Of a stretch of 64,000 nt of DNA, positions 772 through 6,502 are shown one piece after another. This DNA is from Chthoniobacterales bacterium (lineage in GTDB: Bacteria > Verrucomicrobiota > Verrucomicrobiia > Chthoniobacterales > DASVRZ01): positions 62,001 through 126,000 of the forward strand of contig JBDSQB010000017.1 of NCBI GenBank assembly GCA_039930045.1. Direction: 5' to 3'. How positions within the stretch are numbered: position 1 is the stretch's first letter; every line of letters starts with the position of its first letter. The notes under the pieces are model-generated. The model had not been told where the DNA came from, did not search any database, and saw only the letters and a program-made list of their open reading frames with translations. A program made the position numbers and the translations under genes.

Positions 772-1692
772 ATGAACGAATTTCCGTCTCCTGGCTCCTC
801 CGATTCCACCCCCAAACGCAAGGTGGGCCTGCGTCCCGGCAAAGGCTGGAACAAGCGCAATTTCCTCACGGAAGTCTTTCTGCCGACGCTCCTCTCGAAG
901 CGCGAGGGAATGCCCGAAACGGTGATCTTTCCGGCGCTGCGGGAGAATGAAATCGGCATCACCTGGATCGGGCACGCGTCGTTTCTCATTCAGACCGCCG
1001 GGGTGAACATCCTGATCGATCCGAACTGGGCGAGCTGGCTGAAAGTCGTCAAGCGGATCAAGCATCCGGGCGTCCATTTGCACGATTTGCCGGACATCGA
1101 TCTCGTCCTCGTCACGCACGCCCACTTCGATCATCTCGACCGGAAAAGTCTCCGCGCCGTGGCGGCGGATCAGCCCATCGTGGTGCCGTTTGAGGTGGGA
1201 AACCTGGTGCACGACCTGGGTTTCAACCGGGTGCACGAGCTGCATTATTGGGAAACGATGACCCACGGGCCGCTGGAAATTTCCCTGACGCCGTGCCATC
1301 ACTGGGGCGCGCGAATGCTCCACGACTCGCATCGCGGCTTTGGCGGGTTTCACATCAAAATTGGCGACCGGAGCATCTTCCACTGCGGCGACACCGCGTA
1401 TTTCGATGGGTTTGCGGAGATCGGCGAGCGGTGTCCCATCGAGATCGCGCTGCTGCCGATCGGGGCCTACGACCCGCCGAGCGGGCGCGAGGTCCACATG
1501 AATCCCGAGGAGGCCGTGAAGGCGTTTCAAGAACTCGGCGCGCGGACTTTGATCCCGATGCACTACGGGAGTTTTCGGCTGAGTTACGAGCCCGTGCACG
1601 AGCCACCGGAGCGCCTGCTGCAAGAGGCGAGTCGCATGGGGATCGCAGAGAAAATCTGCATCATGCGCGAAGGCCAGCCGATGGTGTTTTAG
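772..1692 (+). CDS. Metallo-beta-lactamase-fold hydrolase (NAPE-PLD/UlaG-like)
   Basis: A 306-aa cytoplasmic MBL-fold protein. The metal-binding motif THAHFDHLD (HxHxDH) lies near residue 120, and GDTAYFD supplies the later bridging aspartate. TPCHHWGAR and LLPIGAYDP followed by HMNPEEAV are typical of the NAPE-PLD-like/beta-lactamase superfamily 2 branch, and IPMHYGSF supplies the last histidine. No signal peptide is visible. The ATG at 772 is preferred to a TTG at 727 because the extra residues look non-coding and lie in the divergent promoter region. It is transcribed away from the cyclo-ligase gene. The family acts on phospholipid-like or lactone substrates; the substrate here is unknown. 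Confidence 0.82.
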   Translation: MNEFPSPGSSDSTPKRKVGLRPGKGWNKRNFLTEVFLPTLLSKREGMPETVIFPALRENEIGITWIGHASFLIQTAGVNILIDPNWASWLKVVKRIKHPGVHLHDLPDIDLVLVTHAHFDHLDRKSLRAVAADQPIVVPFEVGNLVHDLGFNRVHELHYWETMTHGPLEISLTPCHHWGARMLHDSHRGFGGFHIKIGDRSIFHCGDTAYFDGFAEIGERCPIEIALLPIGAYDPPSGREVHMNPEEAVKAFQELGARTLIPMHYGSFRLSYEPVHEPPERLLQEASRMGIAEKICIMREGQPMVF

Positions 1693-1711
1693 GCGTCACG
1701 CCCCTTCTCGC

Positions 1712-1829
1712 GTCACCCCCGCCGGTGGACACGTCGTCCGCGAAAAATTCTCCATCGGCGACTACGACCACATCGCCCTGGTCACCGACCCCGATGGCAA
1801 CATGTTCGGCTGCACTCGATGGAATAGGT
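1712..1829 (+). pseudogene. VOC/glyoxalase-family gene remnant (C-terminal part)
   Basis: The frame starting at 1712 reads VTPAGGHVVREKFSIGDYDH and continues IALVTDPDGNMFG, which is the C-terminal signature of vicinal-oxygen-chelate (glyoxalase/bleomycin-resistance) proteins. After FG the frame is wrong. One added base after GGC near 1810 would give the normal ending LHSME-stop, so a single-base deletion is inferred. No start or N-terminal domain lies upstream; the remnant directly follows the stop of the MBL-fold gene. It is a decayed gene, not a functional CDS. Confidence 0.6.
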
Positions 1830-1865
1830 TCGCAGCCTCTGTGACTCGTCATTTAGTTTGCTCCC

Positions 1866-2357
1866 ATGCGCTACTTGATGAACCAAAAACTCTTCTGCCT
1901 CGGCGACGACTTCACCATTCGCAACGAGGCGGGCGAGGACGTCTATCTCGTCGATGGCAAAGCCTTTAGCTTCGGCGACAAACTCTCTTTCCTCGATATG
2001 GCCGGTCGCGAACTCGCCTTCATCCGCCAAAAACTCTTCGCCTGGGGACCCACCTACGAGATCCACCGCGACGGCGAGTTAGTAGCCGTGGTGAAGAAAG
2101 AAATCTTCACCCTCTTCCGCTGCCGTTTCACCGTCGACGTGGAAGGCCCCGATGACTTGGAAGCACAAGGCGACTTCATGGATCACGACTACACCTTTAG
2201 CTGCGGATCGCGACCAGTCGCGGAAGTCTCCAAGAAATGGTTTGCCCTGCGCGACAGCTACGGCGTCGAGATCGCCGACGACGCAGACGCCGTCCTCATC
2301 CTAGCTAGCACCGTCGTCATCGACATGGTGTGCCACGGAGATCAGAAGAGGCGTTAG
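1866..2357 (+). CDS. LURP-one-related (DUF567/YxjI-like) protein
   Basis: A 163-aa protein opening MRYLMNQKLFCLGDDFTIRN, with a repeated beta pattern (GEDVYLVDGKAFSFGDKLSF, then GRELAFIRQKLFAWGPTYEI). This is the start of the LURP-one/Tubby-like C-terminal beta-barrel fold. Length fits the bacterial branch. The repeated 'K-F-x-x-G' strands and the central HRDGE turn are characteristic. There is no signal peptide or membrane segment, so it is probably cytosolic or peripheral to the membrane. Function in bacteria is undefined; lipid or membrane binding is suggested for the fold. It stands alone, downstream of the VOC remnant. After its stop, 2358-2583 holds no recognisable gene. Confidence 0.78.
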   Translation: MRYLMNQKLFCLGDDFTIRNEAGEDVYLVDGKAFSFGDKLSFLDMAGRELAFIRQKLFAWGPTYEIHRDGELVAVVKKEIFTLFRCRFTVDVEGPDDLEAQGDFMDHDYTFSCGSRPVAEVSKKWFALRDSYGVEIADDADAVLILASTVVIDMVCHGDQKRR

Positions 2358-2583
2358 ACGTCTATTAAGCTGCGCTACTATCGTATATAAGTGCTCCATT
2401 TTTCTGGTTCCCAAGTTGCACTGCGTCCGATCGTATCTAACACCACTCATCGCGGTTTAACATCGAGAAAACTTTTAATCACTGCACACGCGCAAGTGCC
2501 TTCCAAGAGCGCCAGTTGGACACAATGAACTATTCCGGCATCGAGCTGCGGGGAATACGGCAGCTGAGTCGTTAGCTCAAACA

Positions 2584-3966
2584 TCAGGGTGATGGGTTGA
2601 CGGCCGTTGATTCATTGAACGAAGAAGAACTTCTTCGTGCTTCATCTCGGGCTGATTGATTATCTCCAGATAACTCTGTTACTACAAGCTTTTCTGAAAC
2701 ACCTTCATCATCCTTAGGCTCCACTTCGATTACAAAAGCTTCTCCATATATAGCTCTAAAGGCGTTCTGAAACTGATCTGTCTTGCGAAATTCATTAAAT
2801 AAAGGCCATGTCTCATATCCCACACGAGTCACTCCTTTCGCATTGGCCCCCAGCTCCCTCATAACCTTCTCAGCATCATCAAATCTATCTGTAAGAACCG
2901 CTACAGCTAACTTGAAGTTATCAGAACAATCAGACCAATCCTGATCAGTAATTAGCTTCTCTACCTTCTCAGGAACGCCGCCCCATTTATACGCTATCGC
3001 CAAGTTTATTATAAACACTCGCTTGGTAACGTTAGAGTGGTGCTTCTTAATGGTTTGGCTGGCGAATTTTGATAAGCACGCTGCAAGGCGATACTGCTGT
3101 TCTTTTAGTAGATTAAAAGTGGTATCAATCAGAGCATCATCTGCCTTTTCGAGATCTGAAGGAGCGAATTTGCGCCATAAAACTTGGCTCAGCTTTACTC
3201 CAATCTCGAACAAACAAATAAAGGCCAATGTAAAATACTTTGCGGACACATTCAACCTATCACCAATAGCGATTTCAGTAATATCAACTTTGTTGGCTCT
3301 GCACACTTCAACATATTGTCTCGAAACTACTCCGTCAGTGTGGACAAACAGATTTCTTCTTTCAGTCATCTCTAAAAAGATCGGCCAAGCTTGCAAATCT
3401 TTGCGCAGCACAATGTCGAGGCGCTTTTCCATCCAGTCGAATTGCTTGTTATGACTTTCGCGAATAACAGATTCTACTTCTTTCTCGACTAGATATTCCC
3501 GTGCATTTTGGATATCTCCCAGCTTAACCAGCTCCTCAAATGTTAATGACCGTTGGGATGCATTCAACATTTCTGGTTTTAGGTAGAAGACCGCTTTAAG
3601 TAGATCTCCCAAAAAGGCATCATAGCAACTTACCATGGCGACCAAAAAGGCTTTGGGTGTCTGATGATACGCGGCATTTAAGTTATCTCGTTTGCGATCC
3701 AGTAGCTCGAATGTAGCCACTTTGCGCATAGGAATTGTATATGTTGTTTTCTTTTCTCCTACAGCTTCCTGCACGCCACTTTTCGATACGAAATTTTTGA
3801 ACGTCTCAGACGCACGGTCTGTTTCCTCGGAAATGAGCGGCATGACAATTTCCATTGCCTGCTTGATTCCTTGCAATTTGGAAACGTACCGTTCGAGAGC
3901 AGTTGCAATTTTCTGCGAGGGTTCTGGTTCATCATCGGGAGCATTTTCCGGTAACTTTGTTTCCAT
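2584..3966 (-). CDS. HEPN-motif protein, putative RNase/defence gene
   Basis: A 460-aa soluble, mainly helical protein. Residues about 204-209 read RNLFVH inside MTERRNLFVHTDGVV, matching the HEPN Rx4-6H motif (arginine and histidine of a metal-independent RNase site) with the usual following (H/T)xG-V/I turn. N-terminal residues 1-75 look like a coiled or linker segment; residues 290-420 are helical-repeat-like. The gene is clearly richer in A/T than its neighbours, a sign of horizontal acquisition. The METKL ATG at 3966 is preferred to a GTG at 4002 that directly abuts the upstream stop. HEPN proteins often act in abortive infection or toxin-antitoxin systems; no antitoxin nucleotidyltransferase is seen next to it. 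Function is inferred from the motif only. Confidence 0.55.
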   Translation of the reverse strand: METKLPENAPDDEPEPSQKIATALERYVSKLQGIKQAMEIVMPLISEETDRASETFKNFVSKSGVQEAVGEKKTTYTIPMRKVATFELLDRKRDNLNAAYHQTPKAFLVAMVSCYDAFLGDLLKAVFYLKPEMLNASQRSLTFEELVKLGDIQNAREYLVEKEVESVIRESHNKQFDWMEKRLDIVLRKDLQAWPIFLEMTERRNLFVHTDGVVSRQYVEVCRANKVDITEIAIGDRLNVSAKYFTLAFICLFEIGVKLSQVLWRKFAPSDLEKADDALIDTTFNLLKEQQYRLAACLSKFASQTIKKHHSNVTKRVFIINLAIAYKWGGVPEKVEKLITDQDWSDCSDNFKLAVAVLTDRFDDAEKVMRELGANAKGVTRVGYETWPLFNEFRKTDQFQNAFRAIYGEAFVIEVEPKDDEGVSEKLVVTELSGDNQSARDEARRSSSSFNESTAVNPSP

Positions 3967-4002
3967 AAAATTAGAGGTGATCTTGCGTAGATAAATAACC
4001 AC

Positions 4003-4743
4003 TCAATCCACCAAAGGTCGGTCGGGCTGCAAGCCAAACGCGGTGCGTTGGGCGGCATTGATGGGGTCGCGGTGGGTGTAGACTTGGTCGGCGGTGCCTT
4101 GCAGGTCGCGTCTTAGGGGGTTGAGCACTTCGAGGATTTCTTTCTTGAGCAAGGCCAGGAGGGCGACGGCTTGGGTTTCGGCGTCGCCTTGGGCCCAGTT
4201 CGCTCCCTGATAGGTGATGCGCAGGGTGTCGAGGGTGGTGATTTCGGCGGGGAGCACGCCTTTCAGTTTATCCTTGGGCGCGGTGCCGCCGGGGCCGGCG
4301 CTGAGTTGGCCAAAGGCGTAGGCGGCGAGGTCGAGGAGTTCCTGGGTGCTGTGGCTGGAGATGGCTTCGCCGATGCCGTAGGCTTTGCGCTCGGCGCTGC
4401 CGCTGGCGTGGGTGCGGCGAGCGCCTTTCAAGATGGGGTCGAGGGCGTGAACGATGGCTTTGCGGGCGGTGTCCTCTTCGGCGGTGCGGGTGAGTTTGCC
4501 GGTGCGGAGTTCTTTGATGCGGGCTTTGTAGCCGGTGCAGACGCCGAGCGAGGCGGTGAGGAGGGTTTGGTCGGCGGCGCTCCACTCGCGGATGTCGAGG
4601 GCGGCGGCGATGTCGGTCTTGGCGGCTTCCTGCCGGCAGTCGTCGGCGAGGGTGATGTCGTCTTCGAGGCTTTGGCTGATGAATCCGCGTGGGCCGCGGG
4701 TGGTGGCTGGAGTGGGCGCTGGCGTTGGAGTTGGTTCGGACAT
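4003..4743 (-). CDS. Conserved-looking helical protein with Pro/Thr-rich N-terminus
   Basis: A 246-aa protein whose first 17 residues are a PTPTPAPTPATT-type linker, followed by a predicted all-alpha body rich in Ala, Leu and charged residues and lacking membrane segments. I recognise no catalytic motif. It lies directly upstream of the HEPN-motif gene on the same strand (37 bp to its preferred ATG, none to the GTG alternative), so the two may be co-transcribed. Its codon use is GC-rich and ordinary for the window, unlike the HEPN gene, so they do not share an origin. It could be a structural or phage-like helical protein; no function is claimed. Confidence 0.6.
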   Translation of the reverse strand: MSEPTPTPAPTPATTRGPRGFISQSLEDDITLADDCRQEAAKTDIAAALDIREWSAADQTLLTASLGVCTGYKARIKELRTGKLTRTAEEDTARKAIVHALDPILKGARRTHASGSAERKAYGIGEAISSHSTQELLDLAAYAFGQLSAGPGGTAPKDKLKGVLPAEITTLDTLRITYQGANWAQGDAETQAVALLALLKKEILEVLNPLRRDLQGTADQVYTHRDPINAAQRTAFGLQPDRPLVD

Positions 4744-4805
4744 AATGGATGTGTGTTGGTTTGGTGTTGTTGAGTGGAGTGGTTGGAGCGGTTTGGACAG
4801 GAGTT

Positions 4806-4994
4806 AGGCGGAAATGAGGTGAATTAGTCTTCCATCGACGAGAATTAGGCCGAATCGACTCGGTTTAGCGTTCCAGCGACGATAGTTATGGCTCCAACGA
4901 CGGTTACTATCGCTCCAGCGATGGGCGTTATTGTTGCAGTGACGAGTGTTAGGGTTCCGGCGACGACGGTTATGGATCCAGCGACTGGGAATAG
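4806..4994. repeat. Degenerate tandem array of nine 21-bp units
   Basis: Nine consecutive 21-bp units (4806, 4827, 4848, 4869, 4890, 4911, 4932, 4953, 4974) can be lined up without gaps. Each ends in TTA(T/G) or a close variant, and most have a core like nTCCAnCGAC. Weaker units seem to continue to about 5100. The period is a multiple of three, so every frame shows a seven-residue periodicity, but no convincing protein is encoded. It fills the gap 4744-5143 between the 246-aa gene and the palindromic element. The units are too short and spacerless for CRISPR. Confidence 0.8.
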
Positions 4995-5143
4995 CGCGGC
5001 ATCGGCTCGGCTGGAAAGGGAAGCGGGTCGCGTCGGGCGGGAAGCGAGTTCCGTTGGACTGGTGGCGAGTCGTCTCAAACTGGCTGCCGCCAGCGTCGTC
5101 CAGAGTCGGTGAGCCGCGCCCAATCTGCGGTGTCGCAGGATGA

Positions 5144-6502
5144 GTGAAGTCCGGCACGACAACGACGCAGGCGCTTCCATTCGCTCGCGAGTGGAGGGTT
5201 TTGCAGAGGAATGGTCAAGGAACAAAGACCATTTCCCCAAAAATAAATCAAAAACCCGGCGCTTCCCTCGTTCCCAAACTCCGGTTTGGGAATGCACTTG
5301 CTCGGGAAACTCTTGTTTCCCTGTCTGAATCGCCAAAACGAAACAGAGTTTCGGGCACAAGGCATTCCCAAACCGAGTTTGGGAACGAGGGGGAAAACGC
5401 TGCGAGCACTTGGGAACGGGATTGTCCCGGCAGTGGCACTGCCTCTGAGGTCTCGCTCCAAGCGGGAAGGCAGCCAAGCTGCGGGAACAAGGGCGTTACC
5501 AAGTGCAACTGGGTAACGAAGGGGGAAGGAAAGTCTCTATTTTGGGACGGGCGGCTGAACTACCACCATCGCGTCGTCCTGCTCTGCACCAGCGGCAACG
5601 ATTCCGCAGCCACGCTCACGCTGCCTGCAGACTGCATTGTCCTGCGAGTTGGCGGCGAGGAATTGGATCGCTGGGAGGCGACCGCCGCGCCCGACCACAT
5701 AGCACTGCAACTCGACTGGAAGAAGCCCGGCGTGCGCCAGCGGATTCTCTTTGTTGATGTGGCGCGTTCGCAACCTAACATCACGTCGAACTGGCCGCTG
5801 ATTTCACCCCAAGTCGGCCCGGCGCAACCGGAAGTCTGGCAGCTAACCATTCCAGCCGGATTGCGCTCGACGGTTCCGGCGGAACATCCGCTGGCCGCGT
5901 CGCTCTCCACCTGGATGCAGGGGAAATTAGGAGAAAATGACGCCCCGGTTTTCCAAGCTTTGGCGGGCGCTACCATCCCGGTGATTCCATTGAAAACCGT
6001 CGCGCTGGCTGAGGCGAGGATCGAGTCGGCAAAGTTCTCCAGCGAGCTCGCCGCCGGTGGTGGAATGCTCACCGACGCGAGCCTGGAAATTGCCGCGACA
6101 GAGAAGACGACGGTCGATCTGCAATTTGAAAAAGACACGCGCATTATTTCCTGCCGCGTCGCCGGGGAACGTCAAAATCCCGTGGATCTGGGTGAGGGTC
6201 GAATCCAACTCAGCCTGCCTGCTAACAAGGGTCGCATTGCGGTGGAACTCACTTTTTCTCAACAGCTTCCCGCGTTTGATCCGGCCAGCGGTCAGGTGCG
6301 ACTAACCATGCCGCAGACGCCGCTGCTAACCAAAGTCGCGAGCTGGGCCATTCGCCTGCCGGACGGACTTTCCCTGAGCGCCTTTGATGGCAGCGTGGCC
6401 GCCGACGCCACGGGAGGAACTGGAGGGCTGCGTTTCCGGCAGGAACTCTATCGCGACACTGCGCCACTGGCCGTTCTCTTCTACCAAAAGAAAATCAAAT
6501 GA
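5144..6502 (+). CDS. Hypothetical protein whose N-terminal third is read from repeat DNA; probably a 5'-truncated gene
   Basis: An open frame of 452 codons. Residues about 35-125 are translated from palindromic repeat elements (PKLRFGNA and similar peptides) and do not look like protein. From about residue 130 (position 5530) onward the sequence is protein-like: beta-rich, with LPDGLSLSAFDGSVAADA near the end, no catalytic motif that I know and no signal peptide. The likely history is insertion of a palindromic element into, or replacement of, the 5' end of a larger gene, leaving only its C-terminal about 325 residues in frame. It overlaps the next small open frame by ATGA and precedes a CreD-like gene, so it belongs to that operon. 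The true start is unknown. Confidence 0.45.
   Translation: MKSGTTTTQALPFAREWRVLQRNGQGTKTISPKINQKPGASLVPKLRFGNALARETLVSLSESPKRNRVSGTRHSQTEFGNEGENAASTWERDCPGSGTASEVSLQAGRQPSCGNKGVTKCNWVTKGEGKSLFWDGRLNYHHRVVLLCTSGNDSAATLTLPADCIVLRVGGEELDRWEATAAPDHIALQLDWKKPGVRQRILFVDVARSQPNITSNWPLISPQVGPAQPEVWQLTIPAGLRSTVPAEHPLAASLSTWMQGKLGENDAPVFQALAGATIPVIPLKTVALAEARIESAKFSSELAAGGGMLTDASLEIAATEKTTVDLQFEKDTRIISCRVAGERQNPVDLGEGRIQLSLPANKGRIAVELTFSQQLPAFDPASGQVRLTMPQTPLLTKVASWAIRLPDGLSLSAFDGSVAADATGGTGGLRFRQELYRDTAPLAVLFYQKKIK
5267..5389. repeat. Nested palindromic (MITE/REP-like) element
   Basis: The outer arms 5267-5295 and 5362-5389 are near-perfect reverse complements, and each arm is itself a hairpin (TTCCCAAAC/GTTTGGGAA stems at 5271-5292 and 5365-5385). 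Two further hairpins lie inside (5304-5321 and 5339-5353), and the inner halves are also inverted copies. The whole 123 bp can fold as one long cruciform. A single arm of the same family recurs at 61489-61518. The architecture resembles a non-autonomous palindromic mobile element of the REP/MITE type. No transposase is in the window. Confidence 0.75.
5432..5518. repeat. Second cluster of short hairpins
   Basis: GGCAGT-GGC-ACTGCC (5432-5446) and a longer hairpin with CGTTACC and GGTAACG arms (about 5494-5518) follow the nested palindrome directly. They belong to the same repeat-derived stretch that is read through by the open frame starting at 5144. They could be another palindromic element inserted beside the first. 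Confidence 0.45.

Follow-up and report, generated by a model that had tools for sequence, protein, structure and literature searches.

A predicted stand-alone HEPN protein of a widespread, probably mobile family and the duplicated locus that carries it in a Chthoniobacterales genome

Introduction

HEPN domains of the catalytically active kind are recognized by the motif Rx4-6H, in which the arginine is followed by a polar residue, and many HEPN families, though not all, carry a second motif, Ex3[KR], according to the definitions set out in PMC3710099. The same source describes the LA2681 family of bacteria and archaea, in which an Rx4-6H-positive HEPN domain is fused to TPR. Among HEPN proteins that act alone, Tha is described as a solo prophage RNase triggered by tail proteins (PMC11087260). 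Published screens report four validated systems with HEPN domains (PMC13092281) and, for 6 of 21 systems, a remote similarity to HEPN (PMC9519451), and these screens, known here by their descriptions and not by sequence, may already hold relatives of the protein studied in this work. Another domain met at the locus described below, FRG, is presented as a member of the ART superfamily and a proposed anti-viral effector (PMC9503650).

Here, we analyze a gene from a 64,000-nucleotide stretch of DNA of a Chthoniobacterales bacterium (hereafter, the window). The original prediction had singled it out as an A/T-rich gene with an RNLFVH motif, possibly an acquired defence factor of the HEPN type with a new architecture. 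The reading that we favour, with a probability of roughly 0.68, is that it encodes a stand-alone HEPN-superfamily RNase of a horizontally moving family, nameless in the libraries searched, which would act as an abortive-infection effector. Our literature search, partial in its coverage, found no description of this HEPN family or of the genomic slot that it occupies. The features of the locus are collected in Table 1.

Table 1. Coordinates of the HEPN-family gene, its predicted domains and the surrounding features in the window
Feature	Position	Strand	Basis
HEPN-family gene, 460 aa, proposed single-gene RNase effector	2584..3966	-	ORF, composition, relatives
N-terminal long helix and beta hairpin, residues 16-87	3706..3921	-	AlphaFold2 model
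HEPN-like helical bundle, residues 88-268	3163..3705	-	AlphaFold2 domain model, pLDDT 93.5; VIA-align
C-terminal helical-repeat (TPR-like) region, residues 269-410, proposed sensor	2737..3162	-	AlphaFold2 model
E199-x3-R203 R204-NLFV-H209, proposed catalytic motif, residues 199-209	3340..3372	-	Alignments; motif definitions of PMC3710099
LURP-one-related (LOR) gene, left anchor, duplicated on contig C2 (96% aa)	1866..2357	+	Pfam E 4.4e-18
246-aa gene, function unknown, right anchor, duplicated on contig C2 (94% aa)	4003..4743	-	Own-genome search
Left homology arm, 93.2% to C2 (L111:8301-8949)	1709..2356		DNA comparison
Right homology arm, 89.7% to C2 (L111:10609-11862)	4005..5253		DNA comparison
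Segment replaced by a different A/T-rich segment at the paralogous C2 locus	2357..4004		DNA comparison

Gene composition and motif conservation

The reading frame of the gene is intact, and its translation gives 460 residues followed by a stop, with all the conserved residues in place. Counted from the ATG at 3966, R204 and H209 are numbered correctly; a GTG in the same frame, 12 codons upstream, would give an alternative product of 472 aa. The gene is present once in its genome. Its base composition departs from that of the rest of the window just as originally noted: its GC content is 0.428, whereas 1253 slides of gene length have a mean of 0.570 (sd 0.035). The eight slides of lowest GC (0.425-0.437) all overlap the gene, none elsewhere is at or below 0.47, and the adjacent genes have GC3 values of 0.76 and 0.80, the gene itself one of 0.41.

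The protein contains R204-N-L-F-V-H209, an Rx4-6H motif with a polar residue after the arginine, preceded by E199-x3-R203, which has the form Ex3[KR]. The RNLFVH motif is not a chance occurrence. When the window protein was aligned with 10 relatives retrieved by motif-blind searches, the most distant at 17% identity, P131, R204, H209 and G212 were invariant in all 11 sequences and E199 was nearly, not fully, invariant. In a larger alignment of 66 sequences, E199, R203, R204, L206, H209, G212, Y218 and P388 are identical in every row and the residue after the R204 position is always N or H; these sequences were fetched with a pattern spanning E202 to D211, which makes conservation inside that span partly circular, so only E199, G212, Y218 and P388 count as independent among the 66 rows.

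Library matches and predicted structure

Against Pfam and NCBIfam, the window protein stays below the cut-off of every model. Below the cut-offs, Pfam returns HEPN_RiboL-PSP (E 0.015) and Ist1 (E 0.0089) and NCBIfam returns Csm2 (E 0.017); PADLOC gives Csm2 (E 0.0046) and RTasHEPN (E 0.019), and PHROGs a single unknown family (E 0.15). Among the 66 aligned members, 12 match RTasHEPN weakly in PADLOC (best 3.4e-4), one matches HEPN_RiboL-PSP below E 0.01 (2.1e-4) and one matches the PADLOC family PDC-S34 at 1.6e-14, the latter not being among the ten members that were scanned singly against PDC-S34. Part of the wider family may thus already be catalogued under that label. In the libraries searched, the HEPN family is without a name, yet it is widespread.

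The full-length AlphaFold2 model has a mean pLDDT of 89.8 and a pTM of 0.86, and ends in a low-confidence tail. It divides the protein into an N-terminal helix and hairpin, a central helical bundle and a C-terminal helical repeat (Table 1), and places the R204/H209 motif at the end of a helix comprising residues 194-210. A helical bundle is thus predicted around these two residues; its absence had been named as the outcome contrary to the original prediction. Neither the full model nor the bundle domain alone has a Foldseek match in the PDB at E <= 0.001, and no HEPN protein turned up when the PDB sequences were searched with profiles. We also compared the models with VIA-align. The full model aligned with TPR proteins in many rows over about residues 268-411 with Z of about 9-10, a level common for helical repeats that leaves the TPR assignment weak. 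With the bundle alone, aligned to 505 chains in a list from which the absence of other HEPN families is uninformative, yeast She2p entries occupied the first four rows (best Z 6.0), followed by the HEPN toxins 8yuf (Z 5.2, row 5), 8xdj (Z 5.1, row 6) and 8xeh (Z 4.8, row 8) and, in row 7, by HepS of the Gifsy-1 prophage (9oij, presumably itself a HEPN protein; Z 5.0, rmsd 3.5 over 107), all with values of about 5 that fall within the range common for helical bundles. At such modest Z, the structural agreement with HEPN toxins should be taken as agreement and not as proof. Together, the Rx4H and Ex3[KR] motifs conserved throughout the family, the weak HEPN_RiboL-PSP and RTasHEPN matches and the confident model of the helical bundle support the HEPN assignment that had been made from the letters of the motif.

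Distribution and mobility of the family

Using tblastn, we identified relatives on three cyanobacterial plasmids, all of them full-length and 37-38% identical, as well as a fragment (L013), which was left out of alignment A1. Within the class, 8 of 384 genomes carry a member of the family, the genome studied here included (7 of the 383 others). With the single protein as query, a first scan of genome contigs and a scan of viral contigs yielded no relative, and neither did a tblastn search against 50,697 phage GenBank records. A pattern-guided scan built from the alignment uncovered 76 further loci distributed over many phyla; L058 and L067 lie in genomes also found by the class-genome search. 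The 66-row alignment includes 65 of these 76 loci, the other 11 (L037, L045, L050, L052, L054, L069, L070, L077, L079, L080 and L090) having been left out as partial, split, fused or truncated. Viral contigs scanned with the alignment of the HEPN region also contain relatives, carried by 16 IMG/VR contigs; all 16 ORFs (407-523 aa) align with the family profile, starting at position 3-49 and ending at 396-427. Their neighbours match, among others, integrase families (up to eight members each), repressors and terminases, in a set of 129 of 144 genes from 14 contigs from which L163 and L164 were omitted because their ORFs repeat each other and partly those of L162.

The A/T-richness of the window gene is a frequent trait of its relatives: among the 75 of 81 loci that have more than 3 kb of flank, the gene has a lower GC content than its flanks in 70, with a mean difference of -9.7 points. 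The tree requires 29 changes among the 18 phylum labels, compared with a least possible number of 17 and a mean of 39.0 for shuffled labels, counts that are no proof of transfer. The window sequence is separated from the other Verrucomicrobiota and pairs with a Chloroflexota sequence (96/81), a weak placement involving long end branches. The patchy spread across phyla, the carriage on plasmids and prophage-like contigs, and the low GC relative to the flanks support the view that this family moves horizontally.

A paralogous locus with different cargo

The HEPN gene lies between two convergent genes, the LOR gene and a gene coding for a 246-aa protein for which searches in Pfam, PADLOC, NCBIfam and PHROGs gave no family above cut-off. 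A search of the genome with both revealed one further copy of each, with similar spacing, on contig C2. The two loci share a left and a right arm of homologous DNA (Table 1), and between the arms there is no DNA match at all between the window and C2. The LOR and 246-aa genes converge, and homology ends at their stop codons; the replaced unit slightly exceeds the HEPN gene itself. As they lie on different contigs with different surroundings and diverge by 7-10%, we regard the two loci as paralogues and not as an assembly duplicate.

At the place of the HEPN gene, C2 carries cargo (L111:8958-10599) made up of a 269-aa protein with an FRG domain (Pfam PF08867, 1.2e-25), which matches the PADLOC defence candidate PDC-S15 at E 2.2e-47, and a 284-aa protein without family match in Pfam or PADLOC. 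This cargo is also A/T-rich (GC 0.420; GC3 of the FRG gene 0.41). The simplest reading is that cargo was exchanged by homologous recombination through the anchor genes, a replacement that we have seen in one genome only. The clean swap at the paralogous site, together with the base composition and the Chloroflexota pairing on the tree, supports the conclusion that the HEPN gene was recently acquired, as had been suspected from its composition.

The LOR gene was found at E <= 1e-10 in none of 27 other related genomes searched, and relatives of the 246-aa gene in one of 27 related genomes (best 44%) and in 10 other genomes of the 384 in the class. We considered whether the 246-aa gene marks defence slots in general and rejected the idea: one of these 10 genomes has four copies with no consistent defence cargo seen around them, the ORFs being judged there by listing, without a family search. 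In a related genome (L112:8914-9504), a relative of the 246-aa gene, at 44%, has next to it, on its downstream side, a 197-aa gene, the product of which looks to us like an ADP-ribosyltransferase-type protein and gave no match in a search of PDB sequences.

Several other traits of the locus deserve mention. Positions 1709-1827 of the window correspond to the 3' remnant of a gene that is complete on C2 and that we call glyoxalase-like from a reading of its translation, not from a family search; since only its last 119 bases occur in the window, it is here that truncation took place. Upstream of the 246-aa gene, positions 4856-5006 contain degenerate repeats with a partly 21-nt spacing, also present in the C2 copy, and a palindromic interspersed repeat of the CCCTCGTTCCCAAACTCCGGTTTGG type occupies positions 5265-5391. 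A similar palindromic stretch follows an integron integrase on contig C10 (L102, about 1670-1735).

This integrase (C10:677-1612) is a true one, scoring 450.7 bits with TIGR02249, over the cut-off. It lies near a contig end, with an attC-like box pair, read by eye, beside it, and the genome probably has an integron array broken by the assembly. As for the HEPN gene itself, its insertion as an integron cassette found no support: the order of the GTTRRRY and RYYYAAC boxes at 2353-2461 does not suit an attC, the fold of the candidate stretch 2425-2590 does not stand out from that of shuffled sequences (z 0.53), and the GTTRRRY nearest to the right boundary, at 4047, falls within the homologous arm. 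An 8-bp match between the segment ends, ACCACTCA, is reached in 5.5% of plain shuffles and is not evidence for a direct repeat, and the inverted repeats detected across 1600-5400 are not located at the block ends, as would be expected of transposon ends.

We tentatively propose, as an idea that could well prove wrong, that the LOR and 246-aa genes together make up a docking site, present twice, at which defence genes can be exchanged, occupied by the HEPN RNase in one copy and by the FRG pair in the other. The swap would take place exactly between the convergent stops, the cargo would be read as the gene after the 246-aa gene, and the HEPN cargo would come from an uncatalogued, cross-phylum family of sensor-fused effectors. 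If this is right, the genome provides a natural experiment: two sister loci bear different candidate defence genes between near-identical anchors, so that both the exchange of cargo and the part played by the anchors are open to direct testing.

Genomic neighbourhood and possible function

On two Nostoc plasmids, the HEPN gene belongs to a tight gene row that codes for a protein with TaqI-like specificity, probably a methyltransferase, a 183-aa protein, the HEPN protein and a helicase (L011, L012); DUF262 and EVE-domain genes are found near this row on one of the two plasmids. Four cyanobacterial loci (L011, L012, L050 and L069) have this helicase gene directly downstream, beginning 6 nt beyond the HEPN gene, and possibly represent a multi-gene defence system that recruited the HEPN family; type I restriction genes lie upstream of the relative on a Crinalium plasmid. 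Besides this cyanobacterial helicase, no ORF cluster occurs within about 1.5 kb of the gene in at least three loci; there is thus no general partner, and elsewhere the gene looks solo. The largest shared clusters were discarded: they proved to be ORFs that lie within the gene on its antisense strand (11 of 11) or response-regulator-like genes that are scattered and, for the most part, located beyond 3.5 kb. PADLOC searches with 121 of the 139 nearest flanking genes matched 107 families at E <= 1e-15, an uncontrolled tally in which the members of the families are not separable and from which we claim no enrichment.

The defence role put forward in the original prediction stands by association, through the FRG/PDC-S15 gene in the sister slot, the Nostoc operons with a helicase and a probable methyltransferase, and the prophage-like copies; on these grounds, the gene may function in defence. 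Its position invites a different interpretation, namely that it is the HEPN toxin of a toxin-antitoxin pair, with the adjacent 246-aa gene as antitoxin, or an addiction module, and not a defence gene set off by a sensor. The HEPN ATG lies about 37 nt past the stop of the 246-aa gene on the same strand, so that both are possibly co-transcribed, and HEPN toxins commonly have an adjacent antitoxin, as in HEPN-MNT, a habit that favours this interpretation. We nonetheless judge it improbable: the 246-aa gene is retained where the cargo is the unrelated FRG pair and is therefore not a HEPN-specific antitoxin, its GC3 (0.80) differs from that of the HEPN gene (0.41), it shows no match to MNT or any other antitoxin, and no general partner recurs beside the HEPN family.

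The cyanobacterial loci would also suit a subunit, RNA-cutting or regulatory, that is accessory to restriction-modification-like systems and dependent on a methyltransferase and a helicase, of which the window copy would be an orphan and perhaps inactive. The constant placement of the helicase in four loci, the TaqI-like-specificity protein upstream in two of them and the type I restriction genes of Crinalium favour this possibility, which we nevertheless consider unlikely, as the helicase neighbours the gene in just 4 of the approximately 81 loci compared, there is no other group of at least three, and the window gene is intact with all its conserved residues. That the protein is HEPN-like or simply helical, with a housekeeping role in RNA processing or as a scaffold and not in defence, as the RNA-binding She2p and the TPR scaffolds heading the structural comparisons of bundle and whole model might suggest, is very unlikely in view of its patchy occurrence in the class, its A/T-rich composition in most loci, its presence on plasmids and prophage-like contigs, and the defence candidate that takes its place at the sister site.

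The abortive-infection effector that we favour starts from features established by computation, namely an ORF of foreign composition, conserved motifs, a predicted fold, a patchy spread across phyla, prophage and plasmid carriage, and the replacement of the cargo. We infer that the gene would have been acquired as cargo in the slot between the convergent LOR and 246-aa genes and that its product would, probably, dimerise through the HEPN bundle. R204 and H209 of the two chains, supported by E199 and R203, would form one RNA-cleaving site, while the C-terminal helical-repeat domain, as a putative sensor, would keep the enzyme inactive pending a phage product or an infection response as trigger. 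The activated dimer would then cut RNA and stop the cell before phage progeny are made. If this is right, the gene represents a widespread family of HEPN effectors with a fixed architecture of hairpin, HEPN domain and helical repeat, carried from Verrucomicrobiota to Chloroflexota, Bacteroidota and Pseudomonadota.

Comparison with known systems

The suggestion that this protein has a new HEPN architecture holds insofar as the family is unnamed in the libraries searched, and does not hold insofar as the family is widespread and fusions of HEPN to TPR have already been described, as in LA2681 (PMC3710099). With LA2681, compared here by its description, the window protein shares the idea of a HEPN-TPR architecture; it differs in that no model of that name is found among the eight Pfam families matched at E <= 0.01 by the 66 members. 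The RiboL-PSP-HEPN family (PF18735) provides the best HEPN hint in Pfam, over residues 105-213 with the motif included, but with about 15.6-15.7 bits it stays below the gathering cut-off of 28.4, and the window protein has no other domain match above cut-off. The weak matches of 12 of the 66 members point to the RT-associated HEPN of DRT systems (PADLOC PDLC03820), from which the window gene differs by adjoining the LOR and 246-aa genes and no reverse transcriptase. The FRG candidates (PDC-S15, PF08867) share with it the slot, at the paralogous locus, and encode a protein unrelated to HEPN.

A further comparison is with Tha-1 and Tha-2 of Staphylococcus aureus prophages, which, as described in PMC11087260, are also single-protein HEPN RNases with an R-N-x3-H motif (R265NSIMH270 in Tha) and an abortive-infection logic. 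According to that description, Tha has 301 aa, with a C-terminal HEPN domain preceded by a part in which no domain is known, whereas the window protein has a central HEPN domain and a helical repeat at the C-terminus, the two having been compared by description and not by sequence. By analogy, Tha offers a plausible working model for how the window protein might cleave RNA once triggered.
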